Below, piece after piece: positions 19,728 through 50,297 of a DNA stretch of 64,000 nt; position 1 is the first letter of the stretch, and every line of letters begins with the position of its first letter. The stretch is taken from assembly GCA_000153445.1 (NCBI GenBank), contig CH672397.1, positions 1 to 64,000 of the forward strand. Direction: 5' to 3'. Position numbers and translations under genes: made by a program. This DNA is from a gamma proteobacterium HTCC2207 (GTDB taxonomy: Bacteria > Pseudomonadota > Gammaproteobacteria > Pseudomonadales > Porticoccaceae). The notes below the pieces were generated by a model. The model saw nothing but the letters and a program-made list of their open reading frames with translations. It ran no database searches and had not been told where the DNA came from.

Positions 19728-20078
19728 TTCTATTTTTCTGCTCAAGGTCTCAATAACCAAATTGTCTCCCTGCCAACTGTTATAAAAGCCTGTTTTGGCG
19801 TTGGCGAAGCGGCTGGGGCCTCTGATTTTGCTAATTAGCTGTGATATCATTCCGCCGTAAATGTGTAACACGTGTATGGCAAAGGCTGCGGCCTGTCTAA
19901 AAAAAATCTAAGCCTTAGAGCTTAGTGGTCAAAATTAATCTAAATGGAATTGGTTTTTTTAAAATAATGTCTCTCTCTTTAACCAGGGAGCGCATCAGGG
20001 AGTTGTTTGAAAAAAATGCGCAATTCCAATTTTTTTGGAAGTGATAAAAAAAAAATTCATTTTTTTGGGGAGTACCAT
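19728..20078. other. Leader region of the TonB-dependent receptor gene
   Basis: This 350-bp AT-rich region contains no gene that I can support. It holds a small inverted repeat (CTAAGC at 19908-19913, GCTTAG at 19920-19925) and long A and T runs just before the receptor's ribosome binding site. The receptor promoter is presumably here, but no clear box pair is visible. Confidence 0.45.
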
Positions 20079-22874: not shown

Positions 22875-24926
22875 ATGGAAAATTATATGTCTGGCAGTAA
22901 TCCAACTGATTATAGTAATGACTCAACAAAGCTTTCAGTAGAGGCGGTAGCAGAACTTTTATCAAAAGGTAGAGCGCTTATCCAGACAGGTGAATTCAGT
23001 GGTGCTCAGAGCTGTATGGAGCGTTTGCTGAGTGATTATCCCAATCACTCAGAGGCTCTTTACTTTACTGCTGTGGCTCAGAGGTTTAGTGAAAACTACC
23101 AGAGTGCGCTGAGCTCGTTGCAAAAACTTATTGAGATCGAGCCAACCTATGGTCGGGCTTGGCAAGAGCGAGGCCATATTCTTATGGCCCAGGGTGAAAT
23201 AGCCGATGCGCGAGCGTCTTTCCAGCAGGCGGTCATCCACAATGGGAGTCTAATTGCCAGCTGGCAGATGTTAATGACATTGACTGATCTGCCAGTTGAC
23301 CAAAAAGCCTATGATTTTTTTGAAGATAAGTTTCAGCGCTTAGCCGCGCTGCCGCCAGAGCTTTTGGGCGTTAGAAATATGATGGAAGAGGGCAAGCTGT
23401 CAAAAGCGGAGCAGCTGTGCCGAAGCTTTTTGCAGCAACATCCCAAACATATTGAGGGTATGCGTCTGCTAGCTGACCTGGGTGTAAAAACCCATGTGCT
23501 TGATGATGCCGAGTTTATTCTTGAAAGTGCGTTGGTCTATGAGCCAGAGAATCAGCTAGTACGCTTTGATTATATGAACGTACTGTACAAGAGGCAGAAA
23601 TTTGAGCTCTGTATGGAGCAGGCGCAGGTCCTGCTGGATGCCGATCCAGAGAATAGTAAATACCGTTTTTCCTATGCCAACCAATGTGTTGCCGTAGGGC
23701 GATTTGAAGAGGCCTTGGCCCTTTATGATGAGTTTATCGCCGCAGACCCCAGTGCGGCTCCTTCTCACTTACTGCGCGGACATACCTTAAAAACCATTGG
23801 CAGAATTGATGAGGCGGTTGAGGCCTATCGCGCTGTCTATAGAGCCAAACCGGATTTTGGTGATGCTTTTTGGAGTCTGGCTAATCTTAAGACCTACGGG
23901 TTTGAAGATGCAGAAATAGATTTGATGCGTGAGCATCAGCAATCAGATTCCACTGGGTTAGACGATAGAATTCATCTTAGCTTTGCCCTGGGCAAGGCTA
24001 TGGAAGATGCAAAAGATTATGCTGCAGCTAGTGACTATTATGTTCAGGGCAACCATCTAAAGAAGCAAGATGTGCAGTACGATGGCGAGCGTATGAGCTA
24101 CAAAATGTCTCTGCAACAGAAGTTTTGTACTGCCGAGCTATTTGCAAGATTCGGTCAATCTGGCTGCGCTGCTCCTGACCCTATCTTTATTGTTGGCCTG
24201 CCCAGGGCGGGCTCCACATTGCTGGAACAGATTCTAGCGTCCCACTCCCAGGTTGATGGAACCCTGGAGTTAAACAATATTCCCGCGATTGCCCATCGCT
24301 TAAATGGCCGTCGTACTGTATTTGAAGAGCCGAGATACCCTCAGATACTAGAGCAATTAACGCCGGAAATTGCTGCAAAGCTTGGGCAGACCTACATAGA
24401 TGAAACCCAGATACATCGCGAGGGGGCGCCTTACTTTATCGATAAGATGCCCAATAACTTCCGTGATATTGGCCTAATTCAGATGATTTTGCCCAATGCC
24501 AAAATTATAGATGCACGTCGTCATCCGATGGCTTGCTGTTTTAGTGGGTTTAAACAGCTGTTTTTTGAAGGGCAGGAGTTTACCTATGGTTTACATGAGG
24601 TGGGCACCTACTACCGCAACTATGTAGATTTGATGGATCACTGGGATAGGGTTTTGCCCGGCAAAGTTCTGTCTGTGCAGTATGAAGAAGTGGTAGCTGA
24701 TCTGGAGACTCAGGTGCGTCGCATTCTTGATTATTGTGGACTGCCGTTTGAAGAAGCCTGCATCAACTTCCATAAGAATGAGCGCTCTGTGCGCACTCCC
24801 AGTGCGGAGCAGGTCAGACAGCCTATCTACACTAGTGGCCTAGAGCAGTGGAAGCACTTTGAGTCTAGCCTCAATCCGCTTAAAGAGGCTCTGGGTCCAG
24901 TGTTAGACCGATACCCAATAAAATAA
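22875..24926 (+). CDS. TPR-repeat sulfotransferase
   Basis: Residues 25-400 form about nine tetratricopeptide helix pairs (for example EALYFTAVAQRFSENYQSAL and GRIDEAVEAYRAVYRAKPDF). Residues 430-680 form a PAPS-dependent sulfotransferase domain. The 5'-phosphosulfate loop is PIFIVGLPRAGSTLLEQ (about 435). The 3'-phosphate site is DARRHPMACCFSGFKQLF (about 545). Related TPR-sulfotransferases beside TonB-dependent receptors recur in marine gammaproteobacteria. The acceptor is unknown; it could be a peptide tyrosine, as in other TPR-linked enzymes, or a glycan. ATG 22875 and ATG 22887 are both possible starts, and neither has a strong ribosome binding site. The gene lies 150 bp after the receptor, beyond a terminator. 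Confidence 0.85.
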   Translation: MENYMSGSNPTDYSNDSTKLSVEAVAELLSKGRALIQTGEFSGAQSCMERLLSDYPNHSEALYFTAVAQRFSENYQSALSSLQKLIEIEPTYGRAWQERGHILMAQGEIADARASFQQAVIHNGSLIASWQMLMTLTDLPVDQKAYDFFEDKFQRLAALPPELLGVRNMMEEGKLSKAEQLCRSFLQQHPKHIEGMRLLADLGVKTHVLDDAEFILESALVYEPENQLVRFDYMNVLYKRQKFELCMEQAQVLLDADPENSKYRFSYANQCVAVGRFEEALALYDEFIAADPSAAPSHLLRGHTLKTIGRIDEAVEAYRAVYRAKPDFGDAFWSLANLKTYGFEDAEIDLMREHQQSDSTGLDDRIHLSFALGKAMEDAKDYAAASDYYVQGNHLKKQDVQYDGERMSYKMSLQQKFCTAELFARFGQSGCAAPDPIFIVGLPRAGSTLLEQILASHSQVDGTLELNNIPAIAHRLNGRRTVFEEPRYPQILEQLTPEIAAKLGQTYIDETQIHREGAPYFIDKMPNNFRDIGLIQMILPNAKIIDARRHPMACCFSGFKQLFFEGQEFTYGLHEVGTYYRNYVDLMDHWDRVLPGKVLSVQYEEVVADLETQVRRILDYCGLPFEEACINFHKNERSVRTPSAEQVRQPIYTSGLEQWKHFESSLNPLKEALGPVLDRYPIK

Positions 24927-24948: not shown

Positions 24949-25971
24949 ATGACCGACTTAACCTTATCTGAAGCAGAAATTCAGCAGCTCGTCGAGCAAT
25001 GTCTAATCGCCAATGGCTGCAACACTGACAACGCCGAAGCCCTGGGGCGCACCATCGCCTCAGCCGAACGGGACGGCAGCGCCTCCCACGGTTTATTCCG
25101 TATGCCCGGTTATATAGCATCTCTGCGCAGCGGCAAGGTCAATGGCAATGCCAACCCAACTGTTACGCGCATCTCTCCCGCAGTGGTCAAGGTCGACGGC
25201 GATCATGGTTACGCGCCACTGGCTCTGGAAAAAGGTCGTGCAGCCCTAATCGAAGCCGCCCGAGAGAATGGCATTGCGGCAATGGCCCTGGTCAATGTAC
25301 ATCACTTTGCCTCGCTCTGGGTTGAGGTTGAGCCGATTGCCGAAGCTGGACTAGTGGCTATGGCCTTTACCACCTACAAGCCCGCCGTGGTGCCCGCTGG
25401 TGCCAAGACGCCACTCTTTGGCACCAACCCCATGTGCTTTGGCTGGCCCCGTGGTGACAAGCCGCCACTGGTGTTTGATCAGGCCTCTGCTTCTATGGCC
25501 CGTGGTGAAGTAATGATCGCTGCCCGTGATGGACATCCTGTGCCTATGGGAACCGGTGTCGATGCTGAGGGCAATCAGACCACAGACGCGCAGAAGATTA
25601 TTGATGGCGGCGCACTGTTGCCCTTTGGGGGTCACAAGGGTTCCACTATTGCCATGATGATTGAGCTGCTAGTAGCTGGCCTTACCGGTATGGACTTTAG
25701 CTACGAAGCACAGAAGAATGACAATAATGATGGCGGCCCACCGAATGGCGGTGAATTTATGCTCGCTATAGATCCTAATCGTTTTGGCGATGCCGAGGGC
25801 TGGTTAAACCACTCTGAGGACTTTTTGCAGCGCTTGGCGGGGATGGAGGGGGCACATATGCCGGGCAATCGTCGCTATGCCAATCGGGCAAAAAGCGCCG
25901 CCGAAGGTATTATGATTAGTGCCAAGACCCACGCCAGCTGCATTGAGTTTATCAATACTGCCGGTCAATAG
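24949..25971 (+). CDS. Ldh-family (malate/L-lactate dehydrogenase-like) oxidoreductase
   Basis: This 340-residue NAD(P)H-dependent enzyme belongs to the type-2 malate/L-lactate dehydrogenase fold. The fold includes Delta1-piperideine-2-carboxylate/Delta1-pyrroline-2-carboxylate reductase (DpkA) and ureidoglycolate dehydrogenase. Visible family signatures are SAERDGSASHGLFRMPGY (residues about 43-60), the HHF motif in VNVHHFASLW, and GTNPMCFGWP. LLPFGGHKGS is also present. The DpkA-like imine reductases act on cyclic imines from proline or lysine analogues and on N-methylated amino acids. That fits the betaine-type cassette downstream (aldehyde dehydrogenase, M19-like, BCCT). It follows the TPR-sulfotransferase by 22 bp but probably belongs functionally to the downstream genes. 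Confidence 0.85.
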   Translation: MTDLTLSEAEIQQLVEQCLIANGCNTDNAEALGRTIASAERDGSASHGLFRMPGYIASLRSGKVNGNANPTVTRISPAVVKVDGDHGYAPLALEKGRAALIEAARENGIAAMALVNVHHFASLWVEVEPIAEAGLVAMAFTTYKPAVVPAGAKTPLFGTNPMCFGWPRGDKPPLVFDQASASMARGEVMIAARDGHPVPMGTGVDAEGNQTTDAQKIIDGGALLPFGGHKGSTIAMMIELLVAGLTGMDFSYEAQKNDNNDGGPPNGGEFMLAIDPNRFGDAEGWLNHSEDFLQRLAGMEGAHMPGNRRYANRAKSAAEGIMISAKTHASCIEFINTAGQ

Positions 25972-26001
25972 TGACCTTCCTGTTTCTCGACGCTCTGTGA
26001 G

Positions 26002-26859
26002 TTAAAGCAGTGTCAAACCATATTTGGCAACCTGACGAGGTGTCTCGCGGATAATGGTTTCCATCATTGCCTCCGCGGCGGGCGATAGGATCCAGTCCTT
26101 GCGGGTAATAATATAGATCTCACGGCTCTCTGAAGGCACCAGTGGTCGTGAGATTAGCTCGCCAGCCGGTTTCGGTATGGCCAGAGAGGGCAGTACCGAA
26201 ACCCCGAGATTAGATCTCAGCATGGCCATCAACGTCGTGAGGTTGGGAAAATCAAACTTGGATTGGCCACCCTCTTGGCGCGGTCTCAGGTCTCGGGTCA
26301 CACCTGTATCGAGAAAGGTCGCCTGATCCAACTGTTGCCACTCAATGCCCCCGCTATGCTGGGCCAGGGGATGATCCCGGTGACAGATCAATTCGAGCTT
26401 GTCAGCAAATAAGGGTGTGAACTCCAGTACCTTATTGGGGTTCCACATGCTGCCAATACCAAAGTCCACCTCATTGCTTTCCACCCGATGCTGCACACCG
26501 CGGGAACTATCATCGTCTAGGTGCAGATTGATACCGGGAAATTCAGTGGCAAAGGTTTTGATAATATCCGGTAGCAAGTTGGTCGCCACTGAGGGTACCA
26601 CAGCCATACTCACATGGCCGCTGCGGCGCTCAGAGGTGGCCCTGAGATCATAGATTGCGCTGTCAAAATCTCGCACCAGACGCTCCGCGATGGGCAGAAA
26701 GTTCTCCCCTTCGGCAGTGGTGCTGACATTGCGCGTAGTGCGTTGCAAAAGCTTCAAGCCGATAAATCCTTCAAGCTGCTTTACTGCTAAGGTGATAGCC
26801 GGCTGGGTGCGAGCGAGTTTTTCTGCGGCACGGTTAAAGCTGCCTTCATTGGCTACCAC
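26002..26859 (-). CDS. LysR-family regulator with no canonical start codon
   Basis: A winged-helix DNA-binding domain (VANEGSFNRAAEKLARTQPAIT, VKQLEGFIGLKLLQRTTRNV) is followed by the LysR ligand-binding domain; the visible protein is 285 residues. The first GTG (26859) would remove the start of the first helix. The frame continues upstream as VTLRHLRTFIV, which is normal LysR sequence. However, no ATG, GTG or TTG exists before the stop at about 26956-26958. The true start may therefore be ATT, ATC or another rare codon around 26910-26955, or the gene has lost its start. It lies divergent to the aldehyde dehydrogenase gene, with imperfect AT-rich inverted sequence between them, and is the likely regulator of the cassette. 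It is convergent with the Ldh-family gene. Confidence 0.75.
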   Translation of the reverse strand: MVANEGSFNRAAEKLARTQPAITLAVKQLEGFIGLKLLQRTTRNVSTTAEGENFLPIAERLVRDFDSAIYDLRATSERRSGHVSMAVVPSVATNLLPDIIKTFATEFPGINLHLDDDSSRGVQHRVESNEVDFGIGSMWNPNKVLEFTPLFADKLELICHRDHPLAQHSGGIEWQQLDQATFLDTGVTRDLRPRQEGGQSKFDFPNLTTLMAMLRSNLGVSVLPSLAIPKPAGELISRPLVPSESREIYIITRKDWILSPAAEAMMETIIRETPRQVAKYGLTLL

Positions 26860-27063
26860 TATAAAGGTACGTAAATGTCGAAGAGTGACGTTTAAGTGTT
26901 TGATATAGATGCCTTTATGGTTTTTAAAGTGGAATGTTACGAGAATAACAATAAATTAATTTAGCTTATATATCTATAGTATTTTTTAATTAGATTTATA
27001 GCTGGATAAGCATAAGATTGGCGAGCCGCAAGGCGCTAATCGTTTATAAAAAGGGGAGTCAGT

Positions 27064-28509
27064 ATGAGTCACGAGATATTTCAGAACTATATTAATGGAC
27101 AGTGGGTTGGTAGCTCAGCAGCAATAGAGAATATTAACCCCTCAGATACCAGCGATATAGTTGGCCACTACGCCAAAGCGTCCTCAGAAGACTGCCTTGC
27201 AGCCATTGCCGCTGCCAATGCGGCCTTTGCTGATTGGTCCAAGAGCGGCTTAGAACAGCGCAAACAGGTGCTCGACTTTATCGGCGCAGAGCTGATTGCT
27301 CGCAGCGCCGAAATCGGTGAGATTCTCGCTCGAGAAGAGGGCAAAACCCGCGCTGAGGGCGTGGGTGAGGTCTATCGCTCCGGTCAATTCTTTCAATACT
27401 ACGGTGCCGAAGCCCTGCGCCTGATGGGCGAAAATACGCAGTCAGTGCGACCCGGCGTGGATGTAGAAGTGCACCGTGAAGCTCTGGGCGTTGTCGGTAT
27501 AGTCACGCCGTGGAATTTCCCCATGGCAGTGGCAGCATGGAAAGTGGCTCCGGCCCTGGCCTATGGCAATGCTGTAGTACTTAAGCCCGCCGAGCTGGTG
27601 CCCGCCAGTGCTTGGATACTGGCGGATATTATTAGCCGCAGTGGTCTGCCCGCTGGCGCGTTCAACCTAGTGATGGGCTCAGGCCGCGATGTGGGTGAAA
27701 CCCTCTGTACCTCCCCTGATATTCAAGCCGTAACCTTTACTGGCTCGGTGGGCGTGGGCCGCCATATTGCTCGCAATGCCATCGACAATATGGCCCGTGT
27801 GCAGTTGGAGATGGGCAGTAAGAATGCACTGGTCGTGTTGGACGACGCAGATATGGATACGGCGGTTAACTGTGCCCTAGCCGGTGGTTATTTTGGTACC
27901 GGACAGAAGTGCACTGCCTCTTCAAGAATTATTGTTCAGTCTGGTATTCATGATGCATTCGTTGAAAAGCTTAGCGCCGCTGTGAGCAAGTTGGTAGTGG
28001 GTCACGCCCTTGGTGAGGGCTCACAGATCGGCCCGGTAGTGGATGCCCGTCAGCTGCAGCAGAATCTTGATTATATGCAGATCGCTAAAGATGAGGGTGC
28101 AGAGTTATTGGTCGGTGGTGAGCGTTTAAACCTGGATACAGACGGTTTCTTTATGTCTCCCGCACTGTTTGTGAATACCACCAACCAGATGCGCATTAAC
28201 CGCGAAGAAGTGTTTGGTCCCATCGCCTGTGTGATCAAGGTGGATAGCTATGAGCAGGCCCTTGAAGTGTCTAACGATTCAGACTTTGGTTTGACCTCGG
28301 GCATTATTACTAACTCCTTGCATCACGCTGGCCACTTCAAGCGTCACTCTCAGTCTGGCTGTGTGATGGTCAATCTGCCCACCGCAGGTACCGATTATCA
28401 CGTGCCCTTTGGCGGTCGCAAGAACTCTAGTTACGGTCCGCGAGAGCAGGGTAGTTCAGCTCGCGAGTTCTACACCATTGTGAAAACTAACTACAGCAAG
28501 CCCTATTAA
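27064..28509 (+). CDS. NAD(P)-dependent aldehyde dehydrogenase (ketoglutarate-semialdehyde dehydrogenase type)
   Basis: This 481-residue ALDH oxidises an aldehyde to the acid. Catalytic C283 lies in FGTGQKCTASS and the general base E249 in LEMGSKN. The cofactor-site motif TPWNFPMAVAAWK and TFTGSVGVG are present. The pattern is closest, by eye, to the alpha-ketoglutarate- or succinate-semialdehyde dehydrogenase group (terminal PFGGRKNSSYGPREQG), which acts late in catabolism of proline, hydroxyproline and sugar acids. GGGGAG gives a good ribosome binding site before ATG 27064. It is the first gene of a tight operon (10 bp to the next gene). The true substrate is inferred only as a semialdehyde from the cassette. 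Confidence 0.9.
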   Translation: MSHEIFQNYINGQWVGSSAAIENINPSDTSDIVGHYAKASSEDCLAAIAAANAAFADWSKSGLEQRKQVLDFIGAELIARSAEIGEILAREEGKTRAEGVGEVYRSGQFFQYYGAEALRLMGENTQSVRPGVDVEVHREALGVVGIVTPWNFPMAVAAWKVAPALAYGNAVVLKPAELVPASAWILADIISRSGLPAGAFNLVMGSGRDVGETLCTSPDIQAVTFTGSVGVGRHIARNAIDNMARVQLEMGSKNALVVLDDADMDTAVNCALAGGYFGTGQKCTASSRIIVQSGIHDAFVEKLSAAVSKLVVGHALGEGSQIGPVVDARQLQQNLDYMQIAKDEGAELLVGGERLNLDTDGFFMSPALFVNTTNQMRINREEVFGPIACVIKVDSYEQALEVSNDSDFGLTSGIITNSLHHAGHFKRHSQSGCVMVNLPTAGTDYHVPFGGRKNSSYGPREQGSSAREFYTIVKTNYSKPY

Positions 28510-28519
28510 TCGGGAGCCA

Positions 28520-29518
28520 ATGATGAACAAAGATATGCTCATGATTGACGGCTTACAGTACGTCAATTGGAATCGAGGACTGTTTGAACAGGCTCAGCGG
28601 GCTGGATTACATGCGATTCATGTGACCATCGCCTATTGGGAAAATAGCCGCGAAACGCTGGAAAATATCGGTCACTGGAATCGTCATTTCCTCGATCATG
28701 GCGATCTGATTATGCCGGTGCATCAGGCGGCAGATATCCTAGAAGCCAAGCGCCTCGGCAAAGTGGGTATTATCTTTGGTTTTCAAAACTGCTCGCCCAT
28801 GGAAGACGACGTTAAAATGGTGCAGATTCTGCATCAGCTGGGGGTGCGTATTATGCAGCTCAGCTATAACAACCAGAGTCTGCTGGCCACCGGTTGTTAC
28901 GAAGAGCAGGACGGCGGTATTACCCGCTTTGGCCGACAGGTGATTAGTGAGATGAACCGCGTGGGCATGATTATTGATATGTCTCACAGTGCTGAAAAAT
29001 CCACTCTGGAAGCGATCGAAATCTCTGAGCGGCCCATCGCGATCACCCATGCCAACCCGACATTTTTCCATGCTGCCCTAAGAAATAAATCCGATAAGGT
29101 ACTCCGTGCGATTGGTGAATCTGAAGGCATGCTGGGTTTTAGCATGTATCCATTTCATCTAAAAAATGGCTCAGATTGCACCTTGCCAGAGTTCTGTCAG
29201 ATGATTATGCAAACCGCCGAAATGATCGGTATAGACCGTCTGGGTATTGGCTCGGATCTCTGTGAAAACTGGGATTACTCTGTCCTCGAGTGGATGCGTA
29301 GCGGCCGCTGGACCATGGGTATAGATCATGGCGAAGGCACAGCCGCCAGTCCTTCATGGCCGCGGCAGCCAACTTGGTTTGCCGGGTCAAAGGATATGCA
29401 CACTGTTGCTCAGGGCCTAGAAGATGTGGGCTTTAGCGAGACAGATGTGGCCAAGATCATGGGACAGAACTGGCAGTCATTTTTTGAGAAGTCATTTTTC
29501 GGCAAGGCGCGAACATGA
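28520..29518 (+). CDS. M19 membrane-dipeptidase-like protein lacking key metal ligands
   Basis: This 332-residue TIM-barrel protein is of the renal-dipeptidase (M19) family. Canonical M19 enzymes bind two zinc ions with an HxD motif near the N-terminus, a bridging Glu, and two later His. Here the HxD position reads IDGLQYVNW (His to Leu, Asp to Tyr), and the Glu region reads FGFQNCSP (Glu to Gln). The later His remain (DMSHSAEKS, ITHANPTFF), as does GIGSDLCEN. It belongs to a variant subgroup that, from memory, also occurs in pseudomonad glycine-betaine/dimethylglycine gene regions. It is probably not an ordinary dipeptidase. GGGAG precedes ATG 28520, and the gene overlaps the BCCT gene by 4 bp (ATGA), implying translational coupling. 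Confidence 0.8.
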   Translation: MMNKDMLMIDGLQYVNWNRGLFEQAQRAGLHAIHVTIAYWENSRETLENIGHWNRHFLDHGDLIMPVHQAADILEAKRLGKVGIIFGFQNCSPMEDDVKMVQILHQLGVRIMQLSYNNQSLLATGCYEEQDGGITRFGRQVISEMNRVGMIIDMSHSAEKSTLEAIEISERPIAITHANPTFFHAALRNKSDKVLRAIGESEGMLGFSMYPFHLKNGSDCTLPEFCQMIMQTAEMIGIDRLGIGSDLCENWDYSVLEWMRSGRWTMGIDHGEGTAASPSWPRQPTWFAGSKDMHTVAQGLEDVGFSETDVAKIMGQNWQSFFEKSFFGKART

Positions 29519-31056
29519 GTCATCAGGTCAGCGAAAAGTCTGTCGCAGTTATTGATTGGCCCGTATTTGTTCTGAGCGGCGGATTCTTAATGCTGTTTGT
29601 TGCCACCGCACTATTCGATATTGAGCTGCTATCAGCAACGGTTAACGGCGCCTTTGGCGGCGCAACCAAGTTATTTGGCGCTTACTGGCAAGTGTTAATG
29701 CTACTGACTTTTTTGGTGGCCCTGATGGTTGCGATCTCCGATTCAGGTAAGGCGCGACTGGGCAATCTCGAGGCACCGGATATCAGCACCTATAAATGGG
29801 TGGCGATTATTATGTGCACGTTATTGGCGGGTGGCGGTGTGTTCTGGGCCGCCGCAGAGCCTATGGCGCACTTTATCTCCTCACCGCCACTGTTTGGCGT
29901 GGAGTCAGCGAGCCCCGAGGCGGTCTATCCGGCACTTGCCCAGAGCTATATGCACTGGGGCTTTTTATCCTGGTCGATTCTCGGCAGTCTCACGGCAATT
30001 ATTTTTATGTATCTGCACTACGACAAAGGTCTGCCGTTAAAACCCCGCATTCTGCTCTATCCGCTGTTCGGAGAGCGAGTGTTGCACGGCTGGCTCGGTG
30101 CTTTTATCGATGCAGTCTGTGTGGTGGCAGTTGTTTCAGGTACTGTCGGGCCGATTGGCTTTTTGGGCCTCCAGGTTAGTTTTGGCCTCTCTGAGCTGTT
30201 TGGTCTGACTAATGACTACAGCGCTCAGTTGCTGATTATTCTCGGCCTAATTGCGATTTATACGGTCTCTGCTGTCTCTGGTGTTACCCGGGGTATCCAA
30301 ATCCTGAGCTCATTTAATATTGGTCTCTCCATTGTGTTGATCAGCTTTATTTTATTGTTTGGGCCAACAGCGTTTATTTTCGATAGTTTTATTCAGTCCG
30401 TGGGAGTGTTGATCAGCGAGTTTATTCCCATGGCCAGTTATCGTGCCGACAGCGGTTGGGTAAATGGCTGGACAGTGTTCTTTTGGGGATGGTTTATTGG
30501 CTATGGTCCGCTGATGGCCATGTTTATTGCGCGTATCTCTCGGGGCCGGACTATTCGCCAACTGATCATTACTCTGTCGCTGATCGCACCGCTGGTAACC
30601 TACTTTTGGTTCACCATTGTCGGCGGTACGGGCATTGCCTTTGAACTGGCGAATCCCGGAGTGATCTCTGGTCCCTATGCAGCCTCTGGTATGCCTGCGG
30701 CACTGCTAGCCATTACCCAGCAGTTACCCTGGGGCTTTTTGATCTCAGTGCTGTTTTTGGTGCTCACAACAATCTTTGTTGCCACCACCGGTGACTCCAT
30801 GACCTATACGGTTTCTATGGTCATGACCGGCACCGATGATCCGCCTACTGCCCTGAGAGTATTCTGGGGAATTATGATGGGGGTGCTGGCGGCAATTTTA
30901 ATCTCAATCGGCTCTGGCGGCGTATCGGCATTACAGTCATTTATTGTCGTAACTGCCGTTCCAGTGTCGCTTATATTAATGCCGTCACTTTGGAATGCGC
31001 CTAAAATAGCCAAATTAATGGCCTTGCAACAGGGTCATATTAAGCGCTCGTATTAG
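29515..31056 (+). CDS. BCCT-family betaine/choline/carnitine/DMSP transporter
   Basis: This 513-residue protein has about 12 membrane helices and the BCCT signature (WTVFFWGWFIGYGPLMAMFI, then ARISRGRT). The aromatic substrate region includes GGGVFWAAAEP. BCCT proteins import quaternary ammonium or sulfonium zwitterions by Na+ or H+ symport or exchange. There is no long C-terminal osmosensing extension, so a catabolic uptake role is more likely than osmotic control. It is translationally coupled to the M19-like gene. In Marinomonas the DMSP cluster contains a BCCT (DddT). Here the transporter lies within 10 kb of dddBCD but in the other operon, so DMSP or another betaine are both possible substrates. 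Confidence 0.92.
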   Translation: MSHQVSEKSVAVIDWPVFVLSGGFLMLFVATALFDIELLSATVNGAFGGATKLFGAYWQVLMLLTFLVALMVAISDSGKARLGNLEAPDISTYKWVAIIMCTLLAGGGVFWAAAEPMAHFISSPPLFGVESASPEAVYPALAQSYMHWGFLSWSILGSLTAIIFMYLHYDKGLPLKPRILLYPLFGERVLHGWLGAFIDAVCVVAVVSGTVGPIGFLGLQVSFGLSELFGLTNDYSAQLLIILGLIAIYTVSAVSGVTRGIQILSSFNIGLSIVLISFILLFGPTAFIFDSFIQSVGVLISEFIPMASYRADSGWVNGWTVFFWGWFIGYGPLMAMFIARISRGRTIRQLIITLSLIAPLVTYFWFTIVGGTGIAFELANPGVISGPYAASGMPAALLAITQQLPWGFLISVLFLVLTTIFVATTGDSMTYTVSMVMTGTDDPPTALRVFWGIMMGVLAAILISIGSGGVSALQSFIVVTAVPVSLILMPSLWNAPKIAKLMALQQGHIKRSY

Positions 31057-31130
31057 ACACTCATATTGGACAATCTGATTAAGTTATTAGATTGATAAAA
31101 CATTGGTTAAAGACATAGGAAGATACCGCC

Positions 31131-32882
31131 GTGCAGCAAGATCCGCACTTAATAGAGCAGTTGGCCGCGAGCAATATTAGACTATTGCCGCTGCGTCCTG
31201 CCAGCCAGGTTATGCAACTTGAACGCCTAGGTAGCTTTCATCAGTCACGTCTCAGCTTTATGCGCACATTGGTGCGACGAATGGTGGCGGAAAATTGGCA
31301 GGTAAGCACCCCTATATTTGATTTAGATGATCAGGGCTATGGCACTGTGGTCTATCAGGTGGAGGCGAAATATGGCACTTTTAGTTTTGTCTTGTTCTCT
31401 CATTATCTCGACCCAGAGCAGCGCAATGATCGGGTAATTGCCAACCAATGGGATCTCACCATGGCCCTTTGTGAAGGCACTGTAGGGCCTGAACAGCTAG
31501 ATTTTTTACGCACCAATGTGCCCAAGCAGGAAGCCGGTCGAGTGGATTCGCGGGTGCTGGTGCTATCCCGTGCCAACCGCAGTGCTCGGACCTTTGACTA
31601 CGTCGTGGATGAATTAGCTCAGGGTCGCCAGCCGAATGTCGATGTAATTGCTGAAGTGGGCTACCTCTATCGCACTACCGCAGCCTACGGTAGCGGCAAG
31701 TTGGGGATGGCAGATTGGGAGAAGGTTCGCACCAAACATCGCGACTTTGCTCGACCCTTTGCCGCGGAGATGTTCACCTGCTATATGTTGCGTCACTTTA
31801 GTATGCAGCAGGCAGATTATTTAGCCGCCCAGCGCAGTCCTGAAACTGCGGTGAATCTGCATCTAGATATTAAACGCTATCTTGGTATTGGTAATTCCAC
31901 CGGTCTGGGTATGGCGCCATTTTTAATTAATCATCCGCTGCTGATTAATCAGTGGATTGAGATGCGTGAAACTGCTCTGGCGACAGCGGTGGTTGCTAGT
32001 GAGACCGGCGTCGATAGAGAAACCATGGCGCGGTTAGATATGGCGACTCAAAGAGTGATCCAACATCTGGGAGAAATTATTACCGCCGATGAGCGTCAGA
32101 GCAATTCCAATGTCGTGGTTCGTGAAGAGCTTCAGGCCCTGCACCTATGGCTCCAAGAGCAGGCCGCTGAGCTGGCGATTACCCACTATGTGTGGGCCGA
32201 TCTGATTCAGTATGCCGAGCAGCACTGGCATATAGAAACCCAGGAAGTGATCAATAGCATGCTGATCGAACTCTATCCGGATTTGGTCGATGGTCTCGAA
32301 GAGCAAATGGGGGCAGAGGAGTCTCAGCAGATAACTCCCGAAATGTCAGTCTCCGAGCTGTTGGCAATCATTGAAGACAAATACGATTGGGCCCTGGCCA
32401 TCGACTTTAGTAAACACGAGTCTGTGGGGGCATTTTGGTATCGCTCTGAAGAGAAAATGGAGCCGCGTCTCGGTCAAACCAATATAGATATGGGCATGGA
32501 AAAAGAAATGCCTCTGGGTATTGGCCGTCTGGTACGTGAGTGCTACGACTGTATCCAAGACTACAGTAAAATCAGCCCTAGTCAGAATGTCGCACATTTT
32601 ATTATTAAAAATCCTACTTTTAGCGGCATAGTCGCGCGCATGCAAACCATGGCCCAGAGTCGTTATGGGGATATTCGTGAAAACCTGGTACACAGCGATG
32701 TGCTGCCAATTTATCTACTGCGCTGCAAGCTGTCATTTTTTGGTGTCAGCAAATTTGATCCGCGCTCCCGCCTTTGGGTACGCAACACCATGTTTCAGGG
32801 CGCTCCCCTGATTAGTGATTTTGGCCAAGCCATTGTCGATGATTGGCAGTTTCCCATCAAACCTGTATTAACGACGCAATAA
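31131..32882 (+). CDS. Uncharacterised 583-residue cytoplasmic protein of the betaine-type cassette
   Basis: I do not recognise this family. The 583 residues show no signal peptide or membrane helices and are rich in helices and acidic residues. Notable segments are NIRLLPLRPASQVMQ near the N-terminus, SRANRSARTFDYVVDELAQG, GIGNSTGLGMAPFLINHPLL (about 250-270), and SKFDPRSRLWVRNTMFQGAP near the C-terminus. The GIGNSTGLGMAPF segment and conserved-looking Arg/His residues suggest a ligand-binding or enzymatic role, but no catalytic motif is clear. The start is GTG 31131 with AGGA about 10 bp upstream. It lies 74 bp after the BCCT gene and 5 bp before the DUF3726-like gene, so the last two genes are probably co-translated partners. 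Confidence 0.6.
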   Translation: MQQDPHLIEQLAASNIRLLPLRPASQVMQLERLGSFHQSRLSFMRTLVRRMVAENWQVSTPIFDLDDQGYGTVVYQVEAKYGTFSFVLFSHYLDPEQRNDRVIANQWDLTMALCEGTVGPEQLDFLRTNVPKQEAGRVDSRVLVLSRANRSARTFDYVVDELAQGRQPNVDVIAEVGYLYRTTAAYGSGKLGMADWEKVRTKHRDFARPFAAEMFTCYMLRHFSMQQADYLAAQRSPETAVNLHLDIKRYLGIGNSTGLGMAPFLINHPLLINQWIEMRETALATAVVASETGVDRETMARLDMATQRVIQHLGEIITADERQSNSNVVVREELQALHLWLQEQAAELAITHYVWADLIQYAEQHWHIETQEVINSMLIELYPDLVDGLEEQMGAEESQQITPEMSVSELLAIIEDKYDWALAIDFSKHESVGAFWYRSEEKMEPRLGQTNIDMGMEKEMPLGIGRLVRECYDCIQDYSKISPSQNVAHFIIKNPTFSGIVARMQTMAQSRYGDIRENLVHSDVLPIYLLRCKLSFFGVSKFDPRSRLWVRNTMFQGAPLISDFGQAIVDDWQFPIKPVLTTQ

Positions 32883-32887
32883 GCTCC

Positions 32888-33622
32888 ATGAAAGTCTCTA
32901 AAAATGAATTGATAGCCTCCCTAAAGAAGGCCTTTGAGGGCCTCGGGTTCCGCTCCGGCGACTATCAGGACGCCGCGGATATGGTGGTCTGGTTAGAGAC
33001 CCATGGTTTTGATGGTTTTGAACGTCTGCAGGCAGCGCTGATCTATCTCAATGCCACCAAGCCGATTCATGCCGAGCTAGTTCAGGAAGATACCCATAAC
33101 GCTGTGCTCGATGGCCGCGGCACGTCTATCCTGCTCTGCGGTAGTGAGGCAGTTGATCTGGTTAGATCTCAGGTAATGCTGGGCTCCTGCGCAGCGATAG
33201 AGCTATTCGACTGTTATAACCGAAGCTTTATTATGCAGCGGCTGGTGAAGGCCGCGCAGCGCAATTACGCCTTTATTGCCTATTGGCGGCAGCTTGATTA
33301 CTGCGTCAAAGTGTCTATTGAGGCGGGCGCTGCACTGCCCGAGTATCAGACTTTTACGATTACCGAAGTGCTTGAACCTCAGTCTCTGCGAGTATTTTGC
33401 GGCACCAGCTTAGAGGCTATTGAAAAGCAATATGCCCTGCAGTTGCAGTTTGGTACATTGCTTGAAACCTACACTGGGGAAGAGATGATCGCCTGTTACC
33501 AGGATTCACTGGAGGGAGGCATAGAGATAGACGAAGCACTGTGGCGAACGCTAGATGATCTGGTCACCAGAGTATTGGTGCCATCTACCGACAGCTCGCG
33601 TGCCGGAGCTGGCGGCTCATAG
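32888..33622 (+). CDS. DUF3726-like protein
   Basis: This 244-residue protein resembles the DUF3726 family, which has no known function. The start ATG 32888 (MKVSKNELIASLKKAFEGLG) is preferred over an in-frame upstream codon because it avoids overlap with the preceding gene and gives a family-like N-terminus. Features are DAADMVVWLETHGFDGFERL, a central region beginning LDGRGTSILLCGSEAVDL, and FCGTSLEAIEKQYALQL. No signal peptide or membrane segment is visible. It sits 5 bp after the 583-residue unknown and ends the operon, convergent with the LysR gene. Its place beside an Ldh-type reductase, ALDH and BCCT suggests a role in degrading the transported compound. Confidence 0.6.
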   Translation: MKVSKNELIASLKKAFEGLGFRSGDYQDAADMVVWLETHGFDGFERLQAALIYLNATKPIHAELVQEDTHNAVLDGRGTSILLCGSEAVDLVRSQVMLGSCAAIELFDCYNRSFIMQRLVKAAQRNYAFIAYWRQLDYCVKVSIEAGAALPEYQTFTITEVLEPQSLRVFCGTSLEAIEKQYALQLQFGTLLETYTGEEMIACYQDSLEGGIEIDEALWRTLDDLVTRVLVPSTDSSRAGAGGS

Positions 33623-33659: not shown

Positions 33660-34574
33660 CTAATAGCGGGCATTCTGCCCCTGGTGAATCACCCAGCTGC
33701 GAAAGGCCTGCACATGATTCTGAATTGGCTTGTTTGACGGGATCGCAATAAAAAATGCCTCCTCGGTTGTGACGCCACCCTCAAAGGGTTTTATCAGTTT
33801 TCCAGAGGCCAGCAAGGTCGAGGCTATGGACGTGCGACTGAGAGCGATACCGTGGCCTTGCACGGCCATTTCCATAGCTGTAATCAAGGAGTCAAAGTGA
33901 ATCCCCTGCGAAGCATCGATACTGTGATGGCCGAGTTTTTTCAGCCAATGCCCCCAGCCTTCTTCGTAACCAATTACATGGAGTAATGTGTGCTCTGCTA
34001 GCTCCTCGGCGTTGGACGGTGGCGGGGTGTCTTTGCTGATATGGTCGGGGCCTAAAAGCTGTGGGCTACAGACCGGAATCAACTGATCCCAGGTCAACCG
34101 ATCACTGATTAGATCCGGCCACATACCTTTGCCATAGCGAATTTCTATATCCGCTTCTTTGTTTACCGAATCCAACCAGATATTGCTGGTAAAGCGCAGA
34201 TCTATATCCGGATAGTTATGGCGAAAGTTGGCCAGCCTCGGTGCAAGCCAGGTATTGAAAAACACCAGGTTGCTTCGCACTGTCAATGTATGGCTACGCT
34301 CTTTGCCGAACACTTCGTCGGTGACTACAGAGAGCTTTTCAATGGATTCACGAACTCCAGGAATATAGGCGCGCGCTGCATCGGTGAGTTCTAAGCCCCG
34401 GGGTAAACGGATAAATAAGGCACAGCCAAGCTGGGATTCAAGGCCTTTAATCTGCTGACTAATAGTTGCCTGAGTCATATTCAATTCGGCGGCCGCCAGG
34501 GTGAAATTTAGATGCCGAGCAGCGGCTTCAAATGAGCGCAGCCAGTTTAGTGGGGGCAGTCTTTTTTTAATCAT
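33660..34574 (-). CDS. LysR-family regulator (GcvA-like), candidate DddR
   Basis: This 304-residue LysR protein has an N-terminal winged helix (LPPLNWLRSFEAAARHLNFT, AAAELNMTQATISQQIKGLE) of the GcvA-like subgroup and a C-terminal effector domain (DIEIRYGKGMWPD, QGIHFDSLITAMEMAVQGHG). It is the last gene of the run dddB-dddC-iclR-lysR, 15 bp after iclR. DMSP-cleavage clusters of other bacteria carry a LysR activator, DddR. The position makes this the candidate for that role, but sequence alone does not show it. Confidence 0.82.
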   Translation of the reverse strand: MIKKRLPPLNWLRSFEAAARHLNFTLAAAELNMTQATISQQIKGLESQLGCALFIRLPRGLELTDAARAYIPGVRESIEKLSVVTDEVFGKERSHTLTVRSNLVFFNTWLAPRLANFRHNYPDIDLRFTSNIWLDSVNKEADIEIRYGKGMWPDLISDRLTWDQLIPVCSPQLLGPDHISKDTPPPSNAEELAEHTLLHVIGYEEGWGHWLKKLGHHSIDASQGIHFDSLITAMEMAVQGHGIALSRTSIASTLLASGKLIKPFEGGVTTEEAFFIAIPSNKPIQNHVQAFRSWVIHQGQNARY

Positions 34575-34589
34575 TATTATCCCTCGCTA

Positions 34590-35372
34590 TTAGCCGTTGA
34601 CGCTGTCTGGACCGTCAATCAGTGTGCCCAATTCGGCGGCCGCTGTATGTAAAATATCACGGTAACTGAGCAATTGATCGAGACTTTTACGCAATAGTGG
34701 CGCGTGAATAAACAGGCAGGCACAGAGCCGTCCTTCAGCGTCCAAAATAGGCACAGCACAGCCCGCCATTCCGTCGACAAACTCTTCATTATCAGTGCCG
34801 ATTTTGCGCTGCCTAGTCGTCGCCAAATCCGCCTCTAACTGCTCCACATCGACAATCGTATTGCGCGCATATTGGCGCAGAGGCAGATGGCTAATAATCT
34901 TCTGCCGGCGCTGCTTAGGCAGCGAGCTGAGATAGAGCTTGCCGCTGGCAGTGCACCAGGCCGGTGTATGGCTACCTACCGGTAAGTTGAGCTGCAGAGG
35001 CCAGTCTGACTGTACCCGGTCGTAGTAAATCATCTCGCTGCCATTGGCTATGGCAATGCCACAGGTCTCCCCAGTCTGTTCGGTGAGCTGCTGCAGAATA
35101 GCCCGGCGCGCAGCGCTAAAACGCTGGCTGTGCAACACGCCCCAGGCGACACCGTGCAAACGCAGACCGGGAACAATCAGTCCGCGCATATTGGTCTGCA
35201 CAACCCGATCGTTTTCCAGCTGATTGAGCAGGCGGTGAATACTCGGTTTGGGGATATTCAAAAGCAGGGCGAGATCCGCTGGCGACAGGGGTCGCTCAGC
35301 TTTAGATACCGCCTCAATAATGTCCATCACCCGGCTAATGCTCGAGCCTTTCTCTCTGCCGCTGGTTTCCAT
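34590..35372 (-). CDS. IclR-family regulator
   Basis: The 260 residues comprise an N-terminal winged helix (ISRVMDIIEAVSKAERPLSP, LALLLNIPKPSIHRLLNQLE) and the IclR effector domain with TGETCGIAIANG, TPAWCTASGKLYLSSLP, the segment NEEFVDGMAGCAVPILD, and FIHAPLLRKS. IclR proteins sense small acids and often control aromatic or organic acid degradation. The gene lies 12 bp after dddC and 15 bp before the lysR gene, so it is probably in the same operon. It may sense DMSP or a product such as acrylate or 3-hydroxypropionate, which is inference. An IclR gene inside a ddd operon is unusual compared with the LysR-only arrangement known in Marinomonas. Confidence 0.85.
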   Translation of the reverse strand: METSGREKGSSISRVMDIIEAVSKAERPLSPADLALLLNIPKPSIHRLLNQLENDRVVQTNMRGLIVPGLRLHGVAWGVLHSQRFSAARRAILQQLTEQTGETCGIAIANGSEMIYYDRVQSDWPLQLNLPVGSHTPAWCTASGKLYLSSLPKQRRQKIISHLPLRQYARNTIVDVEQLEADLATTRQRKIGTDNEEFVDGMAGCAVPILDAEGRLCACLFIHAPLLRKSLDQLLSYRDILHTAAAELGTLIDGPDSVNG

Positions 35373-35384
35373 CTTTATCTGTCC

Positions 35385-36881
35385 TTAGCTCATTGTCGGC
35401 ATAGAGAACAGTACACCCTCACGCACACCGGCCGAAGGCCAGCGCTGAGTGATGGTTTTACGTTTGGTATAAAAGCGCACTGCATCTGGGCCATAGGCGT
35501 GCAGATCACCAAACAGTGAACGCTTCCAGCCACCAAAGCTATGGTAGGCCACAGGCACTGGCAGCGGAATATTAATGCCCACCATACCCACTTGTATATT
35601 ATCGGAGAAGTAGCGCGCCGCTTCACCGTCGCGGGTGAATATGCAGGTGCCGTTACCGTATTCATGAGCGTCAATTAGATCCATCGCCGCCTGCATACTG
35701 TCGACACGAATAACCTGTAATACAGGGCCAAAAATTTCTGCTTTATAGCTTTCCATCTCGGCAGTTACGCCATCGATTAGGGTACCACCGACAAAGAAAC
35801 CTTTTTCATGGCCAGCAATTTCAGGCTTGCGACCATCGACCACAATGGTCGCGCCTTGCTGCTCGGCACTGTCGATATAGCCGACCACTTTTTGCTGATG
35901 CTGTTGGGTAATCACCGGGCCAAAATCATTGTTGCTGTCGTTAAAAGGACCCACTTTTAAGGCTTTCATAGCCGCAGTCATTTTACTGACCAGCGCATCA
36001 CCGGCGGCATCGCCAACCGCCACGGCAACAGAGAGCGCCATGCAGCGTTCGCCAGAACTGCCAAAGGCCGCGCCCAGCAATTGATTCACTGCATTGTCCA
36101 TATCCGCATCGGGCATCACTATGGCATGGTTTTTCGCACCGCCGAGAGCCTGGCAGCGCTTGCCATTGGCACTGGCCGTGGCATAAATATATTCGGCAAT
36201 AGGTGTTGAACCCACAAAGCTAACCGCCTTGATATGCTCATCATGCAACAGCGTATCAACCGCTTCTTTGTCGCCATTGACCACATTCATCACACCGTCC
36301 GGCAGGCCCGCTTCTTTTAGCAGAGACGCTATATAAAGTGTTGAACTGGGATCCCGCTCGGAGGGCTTAAGAATAAAACAGTTGCCGCAGACGATCGCCA
36401 TGGGATACATCCACAGTGGCACCATGGCGGGGAAGTTAAATGGCGTAATACCCGCCACTACCCCCAGAGGTTGAAACTCACTCCAGGAATCCACATCAGC
36501 TGCGACATTTTTACTGTGCTCGCCTTTTAATAGTTCCGGCGCACCACAGGCGTACTCGACATTTTCTATGCCGCGCTGGAGTTCACCAGCGGCATCGTGA
36601 GAAATCTTGCCGTGCTCTTCGCCAATCATCTGGCAAATTTTATCGGCGTTCTGTTCCAGCAGATCTTTAAACTTAAACATCACTCGAGCACGCTTTATAG
36701 CAGGAGTATTACGCCATGCGGGGAAAGCCGCCTGAGCCGCCGCAATGGCCTCTTCAACTGTGGCTTTGGATGCTAGAACTACCTGTTTGCTCACCGCGCC
36801 TGTGGATGGGTTATAGACATCCTGAGTGCGTTCACCATCAGTAGTAAGTTGACCGTTGATAAAATGTCCGACAGTGGTCAT
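35385..36881 (-). CDS. dddC: Methylmalonate/malonate-semialdehyde dehydrogenase (CoA-acylating), DddC
   Basis: This 498-residue CoA-acylating ALDH is of the MmsA type. Catalytic C280 lies in FGSSGERCMAL. The cofactor site TPFNFPAMVPLWM and the MmsA-specific tail GDLHAYGPDAVRFYTKRK with TQRW are present. MmsA enzymes turn malonate semialdehyde into acetyl-CoA (or the methyl form into propionyl-CoA). Next to dddB and opposite dddD it fits DddC, the last step of DMSP-derived 3-hydroxypropionate oxidation. It lies 65 bp after dddB. A role in valine degradation (mmsA) is the alternative, but no valine-pathway genes are adjacent. Confidence 0.85.
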   Translation of the reverse strand: MTTVGHFINGQLTTDGERTQDVYNPSTGAVSKQVVLASKATVEEAIAAAQAAFPAWRNTPAIKRARVMFKFKDLLEQNADKICQMIGEEHGKISHDAAGELQRGIENVEYACGAPELLKGEHSKNVAADVDSWSEFQPLGVVAGITPFNFPAMVPLWMYPMAIVCGNCFILKPSERDPSSTLYIASLLKEAGLPDGVMNVVNGDKEAVDTLLHDEHIKAVSFVGSTPIAEYIYATASANGKRCQALGGAKNHAIVMPDADMDNAVNQLLGAAFGSSGERCMALSVAVAVGDAAGDALVSKMTAAMKALKVGPFNDSNNDFGPVITQQHQQKVVGYIDSAEQQGATIVVDGRKPEIAGHEKGFFVGGTLIDGVTAEMESYKAEIFGPVLQVIRVDSMQAAMDLIDAHEYGNGTCIFTRDGEAARYFSDNIQVGMVGINIPLPVPVAYHSFGGWKRSLFGDLHAYGPDAVRFYTKRKTITQRWPSAGVREGVLFSMPTMS

Positions 36882-36946
36882 GGTTTGTATCCTTTAAATA
36901 AAGTGTAGAAAATTAATTTGGTAAAAATGAAATTCGTTGAAACGAA

Positions 36947-38104
36947 CTACCAAAGTTTTTTATAGATCTGAATAATTTCCTCTGCGCTGGGCATCCGAGG
37001 ATTATTGCCGGGAGAACCCGAGCCAATCGCCTGTTCCGCCATGATCTCGAGATTGCCAAAAAAGTGTTCTCGGGAAATACCAAATTGCTCCGGCGTAGGC
37101 ACCTGCAACTCCTCGTTGATGGCATAGAGTTCAGTCATCAGTTTGGCATTGGCCTGCGCATCGCTGTCGCTTACGGCAGCGACACCCATGGCCCGGGCAC
37201 AGTCCGCGTAACGCTCTGAAGCTGCTGGAATAGAGTATTCAGTAACCGCTGGCAGCAACATGGCATTGGAGAGACCGTGGGGTACATGATAGAACGCCCC
37301 AATGGGACGGCTCATACCGTGGACCAGAGCCACCGAGGCATTGGAGAAGGCCACGCCCGCCAAAGTTGAACCCAGCATCATCGCTTCCCGAGCGTCTCGG
37401 TCGCTGCCATCATGGAAGGCGCGGCGGAGATTGGGCGCTAGCAGCTTCATCGCGGCAATCGCCTGAGTATCGCTGTAGAGGCTCGCCTTCTTGCTGACAT
37501 AGGCTTCCATGGCATGGGTAAGGGCATCTATACCTGTATCTGCCGTAGTGCGTGCAGGCAAACTCAGGGTTAACTCGTAGTCCACCAGAGCGGCGGTAGG
37601 CATAAACCCAATACCCACACAGAGCATTTTTTCGTCATTGGTTTCATCGGTAATAATGGTCACGCGGGTGGCTTCAGAGCCTGTGCCTGCGGTGGTGGGT
37701 ATAGCAATAATCGGCAGGCCCGGCTCACTCACTATGCGGGGGAATTTATAGTCGCGCATCACGCCGCCATATTTTCCAAGAATACTGATCGCCTTGGCAC
37801 TGTCGATAGGGCTGCCACCGCCAATGGCAATAATCGAATCGTAGTTGCCGTCACGGACCATCTCGACCCCAGCCTGAATTGAACTGACAGTGGGCTCGGG
37901 CACGGTGTCATCAAAAATATCGGAGTGAATACCCAGAGCGCTGAGGCTCTCTTGGATACGTGCCACATAACCCAGCTGCACCATCATTTTGTCGGTGACG
38001 ATTAAAGGACGCTGACATTCCAGGGCCTGGACTATGGCGCCTGCCTCTTGGCTGGCGCCGGCACCTATTTGCAGGATACGTGGCAGGATAATTTGCACGG
38101 ACAT
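36947..38104 (-). CDS. dddB: Iron-containing alcohol dehydrogenase, DddB
   Basis: The 385 residues match group III iron alcohol dehydrogenases. The NAD site is IGGGSPIDSAKAISIL, followed by PTTAGTGSEATRVTII. Metal ligands fit the Asp and His of DTGIDALTHAMEAYVS, plus the His residues in LVHGMSRPIGAFYHVPHGLSN. In DMSP-cleaving bacteria DddB oxidises 3-hydroxypropionate (or its CoA ester product) to malonate semialdehyde. Its position first in the minus-strand run, divergent from dddD, supports this. It is about 35-40% similar by eye to the second iron alcohol dehydrogenase at 54885-56042, which sits in a different context. Confidence 0.83.
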   Translation of the reverse strand: MSVQIILPRILQIGAGASQEAGAIVQALECQRPLIVTDKMMVQLGYVARIQESLSALGIHSDIFDDTVPEPTVSSIQAGVEMVRDGNYDSIIAIGGGSPIDSAKAISILGKYGGVMRDYKFPRIVSEPGLPIIAIPTTAGTGSEATRVTIITDETNDEKMLCVGIGFMPTAALVDYELTLSLPARTTADTGIDALTHAMEAYVSKKASLYSDTQAIAAMKLLAPNLRRAFHDGSDRDAREAMMLGSTLAGVAFSNASVALVHGMSRPIGAFYHVPHGLSNAMLLPAVTEYSIPAASERYADCARAMGVAAVSDSDAQANAKLMTELYAINEELQVPTPEQFGISREHFFGNLEIMAEQAIGSGSPGNNPRMPSAEEIIQIYKKLW

Positions 38105-38496
38105 TTTCTTACTCCCCCTTAATTCTTATATTTATGGTGGCGATATTACACCTATTTTTAGCCTTTAAATAGTATAACGATACGAATTGTATTGTTTTTA
38201 GTGGTAAATGATTGCAGGCATTAAAAAACTAGGCCCAAGACCCTAAAAATCATTGGGACTCAGGGGCTAAAGCAGGCCTAAATTTAACGTTGTAGGCTCT
38301 CTTGATCCCATTGGTTAATGGGGCTCTAGATCAGTGTTTTCGGGGCTTTTCGGATTCAGTTTTGGCCGCTCTGAAGGCATAAGAAAAACCATGCCTGAGG
38401 CCAATTTTTAATTGATGGTGCGGTGAATAATTCGCTCCTATTATGCCGCACATAAGTGACCGGATTAGCGCTGTTTAGGCTAGTTTTCTCCCAATT

Positions 38497-38757: not shown

Positions 38758-38848
38758 TGGCGTGGGACGACAGAGTAGGGCGATTAGAGACAACAGAATG
38801 ACAGTAGTTCAACAAAACAATAAAAACGATTTTTATAGGTAGCAAGCA

Positions 38849-47041: not shown

Positions 47042-47043
47042 GA

Positions 47044-50279: not shown

Positions 50280-50297
50280 ATTGGTCTCCCTTAAGTG

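Follow-up and report, generated by a model that had tools for sequence, protein, structure and literature searches.

Which compound is taken up and broken down by the seven adjacent genes at positions 24949–33622 of the HTCC2207 contig CH672397.1, and has this gene set already been described? The window analysed here is the first 64,000 nucleotides of that contig, from a bacterium of the SAR92 clade with a 2.63-Mb genome. On balance, the cassette is probably an operon for the breakdown of a heterocyclic N-methyl betaine, homarine (N-methylpicolinate) being the likeliest one, and most likely the SAR92 version of a homarine operon published in 2026. An open reading frame check and a profile scan found all seven frames where expected and with the expected families:

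24949–25971, plus strand: Ldh_2 protein (Ldh), proposed imine reductase (Ldh_2, E 9e-100, 334 bits)
26002–26859, minus strand: divergent LysR regulator (HTH_1 and LysR_substrate profiles)
27064–28509, plus strand: aldehyde dehydrogenase (ALDH), semialdehyde type (Aldedh, E 1e-155)
28520–29518, plus strand: altered M19 TIM-barrel protein (Peptidase_M19, E 1e-73, 248 bits)
29515–31056, plus strand: BCCT importer (BCCT, E 1e-150)
31131–32882, plus strand: 583-residue protein, proposed ring-opening enzyme acting with DUF3726 and M19 (unmatched by sequence in Pfam, NCBIfam and PDB)
32888–33622, plus strand: DUF3726 protein, shortened Ldh2 fold (DUF3726, E 2e-13)

ALDH, M19, BCCT, the 583-residue protein and DUF3726 follow one another on the plus strand with spacings of 10, −4, 74 and 5 bases. 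The Ldh gene lies beyond the divergent LysR gene, apart from these five packed genes.

The gene set is conserved as a set. A collection scan gave at least 584 loci encoding the 583-residue family, of which the best 80 were kept; these are the nearest to the window, so the shares below lean towards its kin. In all, 152 loci were annotated with tblastn (batches of 85, 40, 7 and 20), and 132 had adequate flanks (at least 5 kb and 4 kb). Counting a neighbour when it lay within 12 kb of the 583-residue gene, M19 was found at 122 of the 132 loci, DUF3726 at 121, ALDH at 95, LysR at 93 (a loose count, the LysR family being common) and BCCT at 69. Co-occurrence of the gene set is far above chance, and the conserved company of the 583-residue, DUF3726, BCCT and M19-like genes proposed as a check in an earlier note on this DNA is thereby borne out. 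That note had read the cassette as a complete uptake and degradation route for a betaine; what stands is a conserved cassette for a zwitterionic N-methyl compound, the identity of which we infer. The importer varies among loci: in some genomes, BCCT gives way to an ABC system of the glycine-betaine type or of the branched-chain type. A betaine-type substrate would suit BCCT and the betaine ABC importers alike.

The 583-residue gene occurs in 38 of 397 genomes drawn across Pseudomonadota and in 42 of 143 related genomes (the window's own genome counted in both), in 53 of 385 genomes across one class (Alphaproteobacteria, judging by its SAR11 members) and in 168 of 72,556 plasmid records. The module is also found in Roseobacteraceae. 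Among the matches listed, the closest named relatives by this protein are SAR92, HTCC2207 and Porticoccaceae metagenome-assembled genomes (MAGs), one Porticoccaceae MAG protein being 100% identical to the window's. Pfam is silent on it up to E 1 and NCBIfam up to E 0.1, and no PDB sequence matches. Its AlphaFold2 (AF2) model (pLDDT 88, pTM 0.90) finds no PDB fold at E≤0.001. The protein is conserved, unclassified and probably catalytic, and its homologues extend to SAR11, to rhizobia and, in at least one case, to the haloarchaea. A plasmid of that haloarchaeon, Natrinema versiforme, carries a homologue 33% identical to the window's, together with an Ldh_2-like partner and an annotated aldehyde dehydrogenase and BCCT. 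In a SAR92 relative (G047, contig C10), the gene is interrupted by in-frame stops and is possibly decaying.

DUF3726 is a degenerate, shortened Ldh2-fold protein and the probable partner of the 583-residue protein. None of 77 DUF3726 proteins carries GTNP or GG[HYF]KG; all 14 Ldh proteins of the loci carry GTNP and GG.KG. No mention of DUF3726 was found in the literature searched. Alignments place its start most likely at the ATG at 32888 rather than at the TTG at 32843.

The M19 protein, whose nearest solved structure is 2i5g, was rejected as a canonical dipeptidase on account of missing metal ligands. With ligand positions that we take from renal dipeptidase, three are lost (the HxD pair and the bridging Glu), and the remaining two His, Arg and Asp are kept. 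DGLQY stands where DGHxD is expected, and GFQN where 5lx7 has GIEG. The replacements L12, Q13 and Q89 are invariant in 72 of 72 rows, as are H156, H177, R188 and D246. In ALDH, C283 and E249 are likewise invariant (72/72 rows), and its best NCBIfam models are the 2,5-dioxovalerate and alpha-ketoglutarate semialdehyde dehydrogenases, both under cut-off.

The Ldh protein gives the first indication of the chemistry. Its best solved relative by phmmer is DpkA, delta1-piperideine-2-carboxylate reductase (1wtj, E 4e-90; the next best reaches 4e-41). The window Ldh carries the conserved Ldh_2 motifs SHG, GTNP and GGHKG. RidA proteins hydrolyse imines and enamines, and RidA and Ldh genes alternate in the cassette: at the 95 loci that combine ALDH with M19, Ldh is present 27 times and RidA 61 times, never the two together, and 7 loci have neither (Fisher p 1e-17, a value inflated by kinship). 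Without the 80 nearest loci, 37 are left, with Ldh in 16, RidA in 17, both in 0 and neither in 4. At least nine Ldh/RidA changes are needed on the tree of the 583-residue protein (FastTree, 129 dereplicated proteins, 90 labelled rows), and in a Marinomonas locus Ldh occupies the position that RidA holds in relatives, at the end of the BCCT-M19-ALDH arm. Ruegeria sp. TM1040 carries the Ldh form, and both forms occur in Phaeobacter inhibens, RidA in DSM 17395 and Ldh in M643. DpkA is described as an imine reductase yielding N-methyl amino acids in the excerpted text of PMC6110843. Because the two genes alternate, because Ldh is nearest to this imine reductase and because RidA hydrolyses imines and enamines, gene content suggests that Ldh and RidA most likely act on the same imine, which would be reduced in one case and hydrolysed in the other.

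The second indication comes from an operon about 16 kb away, which the earlier note had called sox:

46352–47041, minus strand: gamma-type subunit, Mgd-like operon (soxG match 44 bits, cut-off 144)
47044–49971, minus strand: alpha-type subunit, Mgd-like operon (864.9 bits, soxA cut-off 1164)
49971–50279, minus strand: delta-type subunit of 102 residues, Mgd-like operon (SoxD domain, E 1e-26)
50298–51539, minus strand: beta-type subunit, Mgd-like operon (477.4 bits, soxB cut-off 529.45)
51568–52446, minus strand: PurU formyltetrahydrofolate deformylase, a one-carbon outlet beside Mgd (TIGR00655, above cut-off)

Judged by the curated cut-offs of TIGR01372 and TIGR01373, the sarcosine oxidase label SoxBDAG fails for this tetramer, since its alpha and beta subunits both score below them; the host's second soxA-like copy scores 1470.6 and is of Sox type. 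The window's alpha score lies near that of a copy on an Acinetobacter plasmid (845.9), to which it is 57% identical, compared with 38% to the host's own Sox-type copy. The Acinetobacter cluster holds dmm genes, purU, folD, the tetramer, glnT, a glutamine amidotransferase, glxC and an FMN-binding glutamate synthase; its glnT, amidotransferase, glxC and glutamate synthase genes are read here as gmaS and mgsABC of the methylamine pathway. Because its soxA score and identity match the copy in this gmaS/mgs-like cluster, and the host's other copy is Sox, the operon at 46352–51539 is, by these measures, of the N-methylglutamate dehydrogenase (Mgd) kind.

Of the 36 SAR92 genomes known to bear the module, nine were examined and all nine have Mgd; none of eight module-free relatives does (four of the 14 such in the genus, four from other genera). 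Mgd lies 13.2–16.6 kb from the 583-residue gene at nine loci in eight genomes, the two being on separate contigs in G003. Given this linkage, the nine cases amount to a single inherited island rather than nine events. Two genomes, G044 and G011, each carry two copies of the 583-residue gene. The Mgd alpha gene is likewise doubled in G011, and one contig's copy of the 583-residue gene in G044 is identical to the window's, so that mixed bins are possible.

In the nine SAR92 genomes, no GmaS match was stronger than E 2e-43, and the top ones spanned about 260 of 444 residues; MgsC gave only stretches of 36–37% identity inside frames of 1488–1828 residues, like ordinary glutamate synthase. The search was able to find both proteins, as G194 and G712 returned them at full length (GmaS 2e-87 and 3e-96; MgsC 76% and 51%). 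The window's operon thus resembles MgdABCD of the indirect methylamine pathway in having an alpha subunit 57% identical to a copy beside gmaS/mgs-like genes, and differs in that the nine genomes lack convincing gmaS and mgsC. Because Mgd is present in SAR92 without convincing GmaS or MgsC, its N-methylglutamate probably does not come from methylamine, and the cassette Ldh appears as the best candidate source. Among the loci with both ALDH and M19, Mgd/Sox tetramer genes (at least 40% identity, within 12 kb) accompany 7 of 27 Ldh loci and 0 of 61 RidA loci (Fisher p 1e-4, the loci not being independent).

Together, these observations suggest a route from homarine through N-methylglutamate to glutamate. 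The substrate would enter through a TonB receptor (see below) and BCCT. The 583-residue protein, with DUF3726 and the altered M19, would open the ring to a C5 semialdehyde whose nitrogen is still methylated: if homarine (C7H7NO2) were opened oxidatively at C5–C6, using O2 and two reducing equivalents, the product would be a 2-(N-methylformamido)-5-oxopentenoate of formula C7H9NO4. M19 could strip the formyl group, and ALDH would convert the semialdehyde to the acid. The N-methyl imine or enamine of 2-oxoglutarate would then be reduced to N-methylglutamate by the DpkA-like Ldh; in RidA-bearing relatives, the same imine would be hydrolysed to 2-oxoglutarate and methylamine. The Mgd-type operon would turn N-methylglutamate into glutamate and methylene-tetrahydrofolate. 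Mgd takes part in homarine catabolism, according to the part of PMC13390433 available here. Confidence differs between the parts of this scheme. The gene families, the Ldh/RidA alternation, the type of the Mgd operon and the linkage are supported at the level of sequence. The passage from an N-methyl imino acid through N-methylglutamate to Mgd is quite likely. Homarine as the substrate is favoured modestly, and it and every chemical step are what we infer. The gene set fits the oxidative scheme, and the assignment of each protein to its step is provisional.

Several results weigh against this scheme. The 583-residue protein has no recognised cofactor or oxygenase motif. The eight module-free relatives also lack a Sox-type copy, so the contrast with the SAR92 genomes is not specific to Mgd. 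Across Pseudomonadota, Mgd (E≤1e-200) occurs in 3 of 38 genomes with the 583-residue gene and in 13 of 359 without it (Fisher p 0.19, or 0.64 with the window's genome removed), and independent tree pairs are unable to reach significance. The tetramers next to the Ldh cassette of TM1040 and of Roseateles score as Sox (1356.5 and 1406.2). Two SAR11 loci yielded no ALDH, Ldh or RidA in stretches of 19.6 kb. Soil Pseudomonas and rhizobia carry homologues whose substrates may be different ones. A phylum-wide link between Mgd and the 583-residue gene was accordingly set aside as unconvincing; the link is limited to SAR92 and some adjacencies.

Other substrates and other chemistry have to be weighed against the homarine scheme. 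The earlier note had named proline betaine, homarine or another N-methyl heterocycle as examples; homarine is now favoured, and proline betaine has been dropped as first choice, the cassette having no demethylase and showing the RidA alternation. Under that alternative, the substrate would be proline betaine (stachydrine) or N-methylproline, Ldh reducing a cyclic imine in the manner of DpkA and ALDH taking a glutamate-type semialdehyde. Ldh is indeed nearest to a cyclic-imine reductase, ALDH resembles the alpha-ketoglutarate semialdehyde dehydrogenases, the BCCT and betaine ABC importers would suit such a substrate, and two loci have Rieske-type oxygenase genes in their vicinity. The ten proteins scanned between 22875 and 35372, however, include no Rieske or MttB demethylase (the search went no further into the genome), which also sets the cassette apart from Rieske-type betaine demethylation by Stc2/GbcA, and the RidA alternative and the linked Mgd indicate an open-chain N-methyl imine. 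Proline betaine is thus an unlikely substrate. Hydrolytic (Zincke-type) opening at C6–N is similarly improbable. It would convert homarine to 2-(methylamino)muconate semialdehyde, which ALDH would oxidize to 2-(methylamino)muconate, with RidA as a 2-aminomuconate deaminase. ALDH with a RidA-type deaminase is the known 2-aminomuconate route, the NCBIfam list for ALDH includes hydroxymuconic semialdehyde dehydrogenase, and the 583-residue protein has no recognised oxygenase motif, all of which speaks for such an opening; but it keeps six backbone carbons, makes N-methylglutamate impossible without the loss of one, and leaves Ldh with Mgd unexplained.

The remaining alternative is that the 583-residue/M19 core is a general N-methyl-betaine device and that this cassette serves another betaine (trigonelline, a carnitine-type compound or a marine zwitterion yet to be named). 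Its favourable evidence lies in the company that the core keeps elsewhere. At three alphaproteobacterial loci (L139, L140 and L141), M19, the 583-residue protein and DUF3726 are joined by an MttB-family methyltransferase, and L139 additionally has a DMGDH-like protein, a homocysteine S-methyltransferase and a PEP-mutase family protein. The same core, without ALDH, Ldh or RidA nearby, occurs in two genomes with an exact match to a SAR11 16S probe, which we take to be SAR11-441R; there, a Mgd/Sox-type alpha gene (41–44%) lies about 8 kb from it. On pSymA of Sinorhizobium meliloti, a 583-residue homologue (29% identity), a 242-residue protein that Pfam does not match and that stands where DUF3726 would be, and an M19 are followed by an ABC importer, an aminotransferase, SSADH and RidA. 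Against a different substrate here stands the fact that ALDH with Ldh or RidA forms a coherent, widespread sub-type, tied to Mgd in SAR92. The chance that the window's cassette serves another betaine is therefore low.

Returning to the homarine reading, the pSymA genes offer a lead. S. meliloti without pSymA did not grow on trigonelline, as stated in the excerpted part of PMC4207669. Because such a strain fails to grow on it, the pSymA version could serve trigonelline, a lead only, as the plasmid record lists 1387 features. A wider proposal can be held only tentatively: the 583-residue protein, DUF3726 and altered M19 would together constitute a new class of enzyme for opening the rings of N-methylpyridinium carboxylates, with a homarine version (ALDH, Ldh/RidA) and a trigonelline version (aminotransferase, SSADH and RidA, as on pSymA), the imine being reduced for Mgd or hydrolysed by RidA and these endings having been swapped at least nine times. 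Trigonelline degradation by tgnABCDE reportedly also opens an N-methylpyridinium carboxylate ring and continues through semialdehyde dehydrogenase and amidohydrolase steps, which is the likeness to the cassette; it is said to use a flavin monooxygenase pair, whereas none is among the ten proteins scanned here.

A conserved homarine catabolism pathway in environmental bacteria has been published (Ferrer-Gonzalez et al. 2026, Nat Microbiol 11:1531-1546, as cited in the part of PMC13390433 available here). The gene set has thus quite probably been assigned already, and the earlier description of the cassette as undescribed is probably wrong. The operon of that work is said to be homABCDER, five genes and a regulator, yielding N-methylglutamate and glutamate in Rhodobacterales and SAR11. 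In number of genes, this composition matches ALDH, M19, the 583-residue protein, DUF3726 and Ldh (or RidA) plus LysR here, and its distribution agrees with the finding of the module in Roseobacteraceae and of the core in the two SAR11 genomes. To these genes the SAR92 cassette adds BCCT, a TonB receptor, a TPR-sulfotransferase and a Mgd operon without convincing gmaS/mgs. Features that may be new are the alternation of Ldh and RidA, the fold of DUF3726, the SAR92 Mgd without methylamine genes, the reuse of the core elsewhere and the 583-residue model without a usable PDB match.

Homarine is a plankton osmolyte rapidly drawn down by R. pomeroyi (PMC12817926, in part), for which the excerpted text of PMC9723723 gives no confirmed homarine importer in 2022. 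If the homarine reading is true, the cassette BCCT is a candidate homarine importer, SAR92 belongs among the homarine consumers, and the choice between Ldh and RidA would determine the fate of the nitrogen, either retained in glutamate or given off as methylamine. The reaction of the 583-residue protein, once known, would explain many unannotated operons.

Two further genes lie upstream of the cassette:

20007–22724, plus strand: TonB-dependent receptor of 905 residues, possible route of the substrate across the outer membrane (barrel and plug domains of TonB type)
22875–24926, plus strand: TPR-sulfotransferase of 683 residues (Sulfotransfer_3, E 1e-53)

Seven SAR92-type loci likewise have both genes ahead of the cassette, as do a gammaproteobacterial MAG (L078) and a Hellea MAG (L085). 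The receptors in those loci are 31–41% identical to the window's, except L034 (92%). TPR-sulfotransferase homologues (47–84%) precede the cassette at these loci and additionally at L066; in L078 and L085, the pair is 31–51% identical to the window's.

The called LysR frame at 26002–26859 lacks its first residues, as the HTH profile is entered only at position 10. The true start is probably upstream of the called GTG, where the next 90 bases (26860–26949) hold no in-frame ATG, GTG or TTG, and an unusual start codon may be in use. Between 24500 and 35500, no Rfam family reached its gathering score. Promoter-like sites (7, against 10.0 in shuffles) and terminator-like sites (11, against 10.1) were not above chance.

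In TM1040 and Phaeobacter, sox-type genes and a helix-turn-helix regulator precede the cassette. In R. pomeroyi, the AraC regulator TmaR adjoins mgd, according to an excerpt of PMC13390433. On its other side, the window's cassette adjoins a region (33660–41479) with LysR, IclR, a methylmalonate-semialdehyde dehydrogenase, an iron alcohol dehydrogenase and a two-stretch CoA-transferase III protein; the last is dddD-like and agrees with the earlier mention of dddD nearby. LysR, IclR and an ALDH from this side also flank the cassette in SAR92 relatives.

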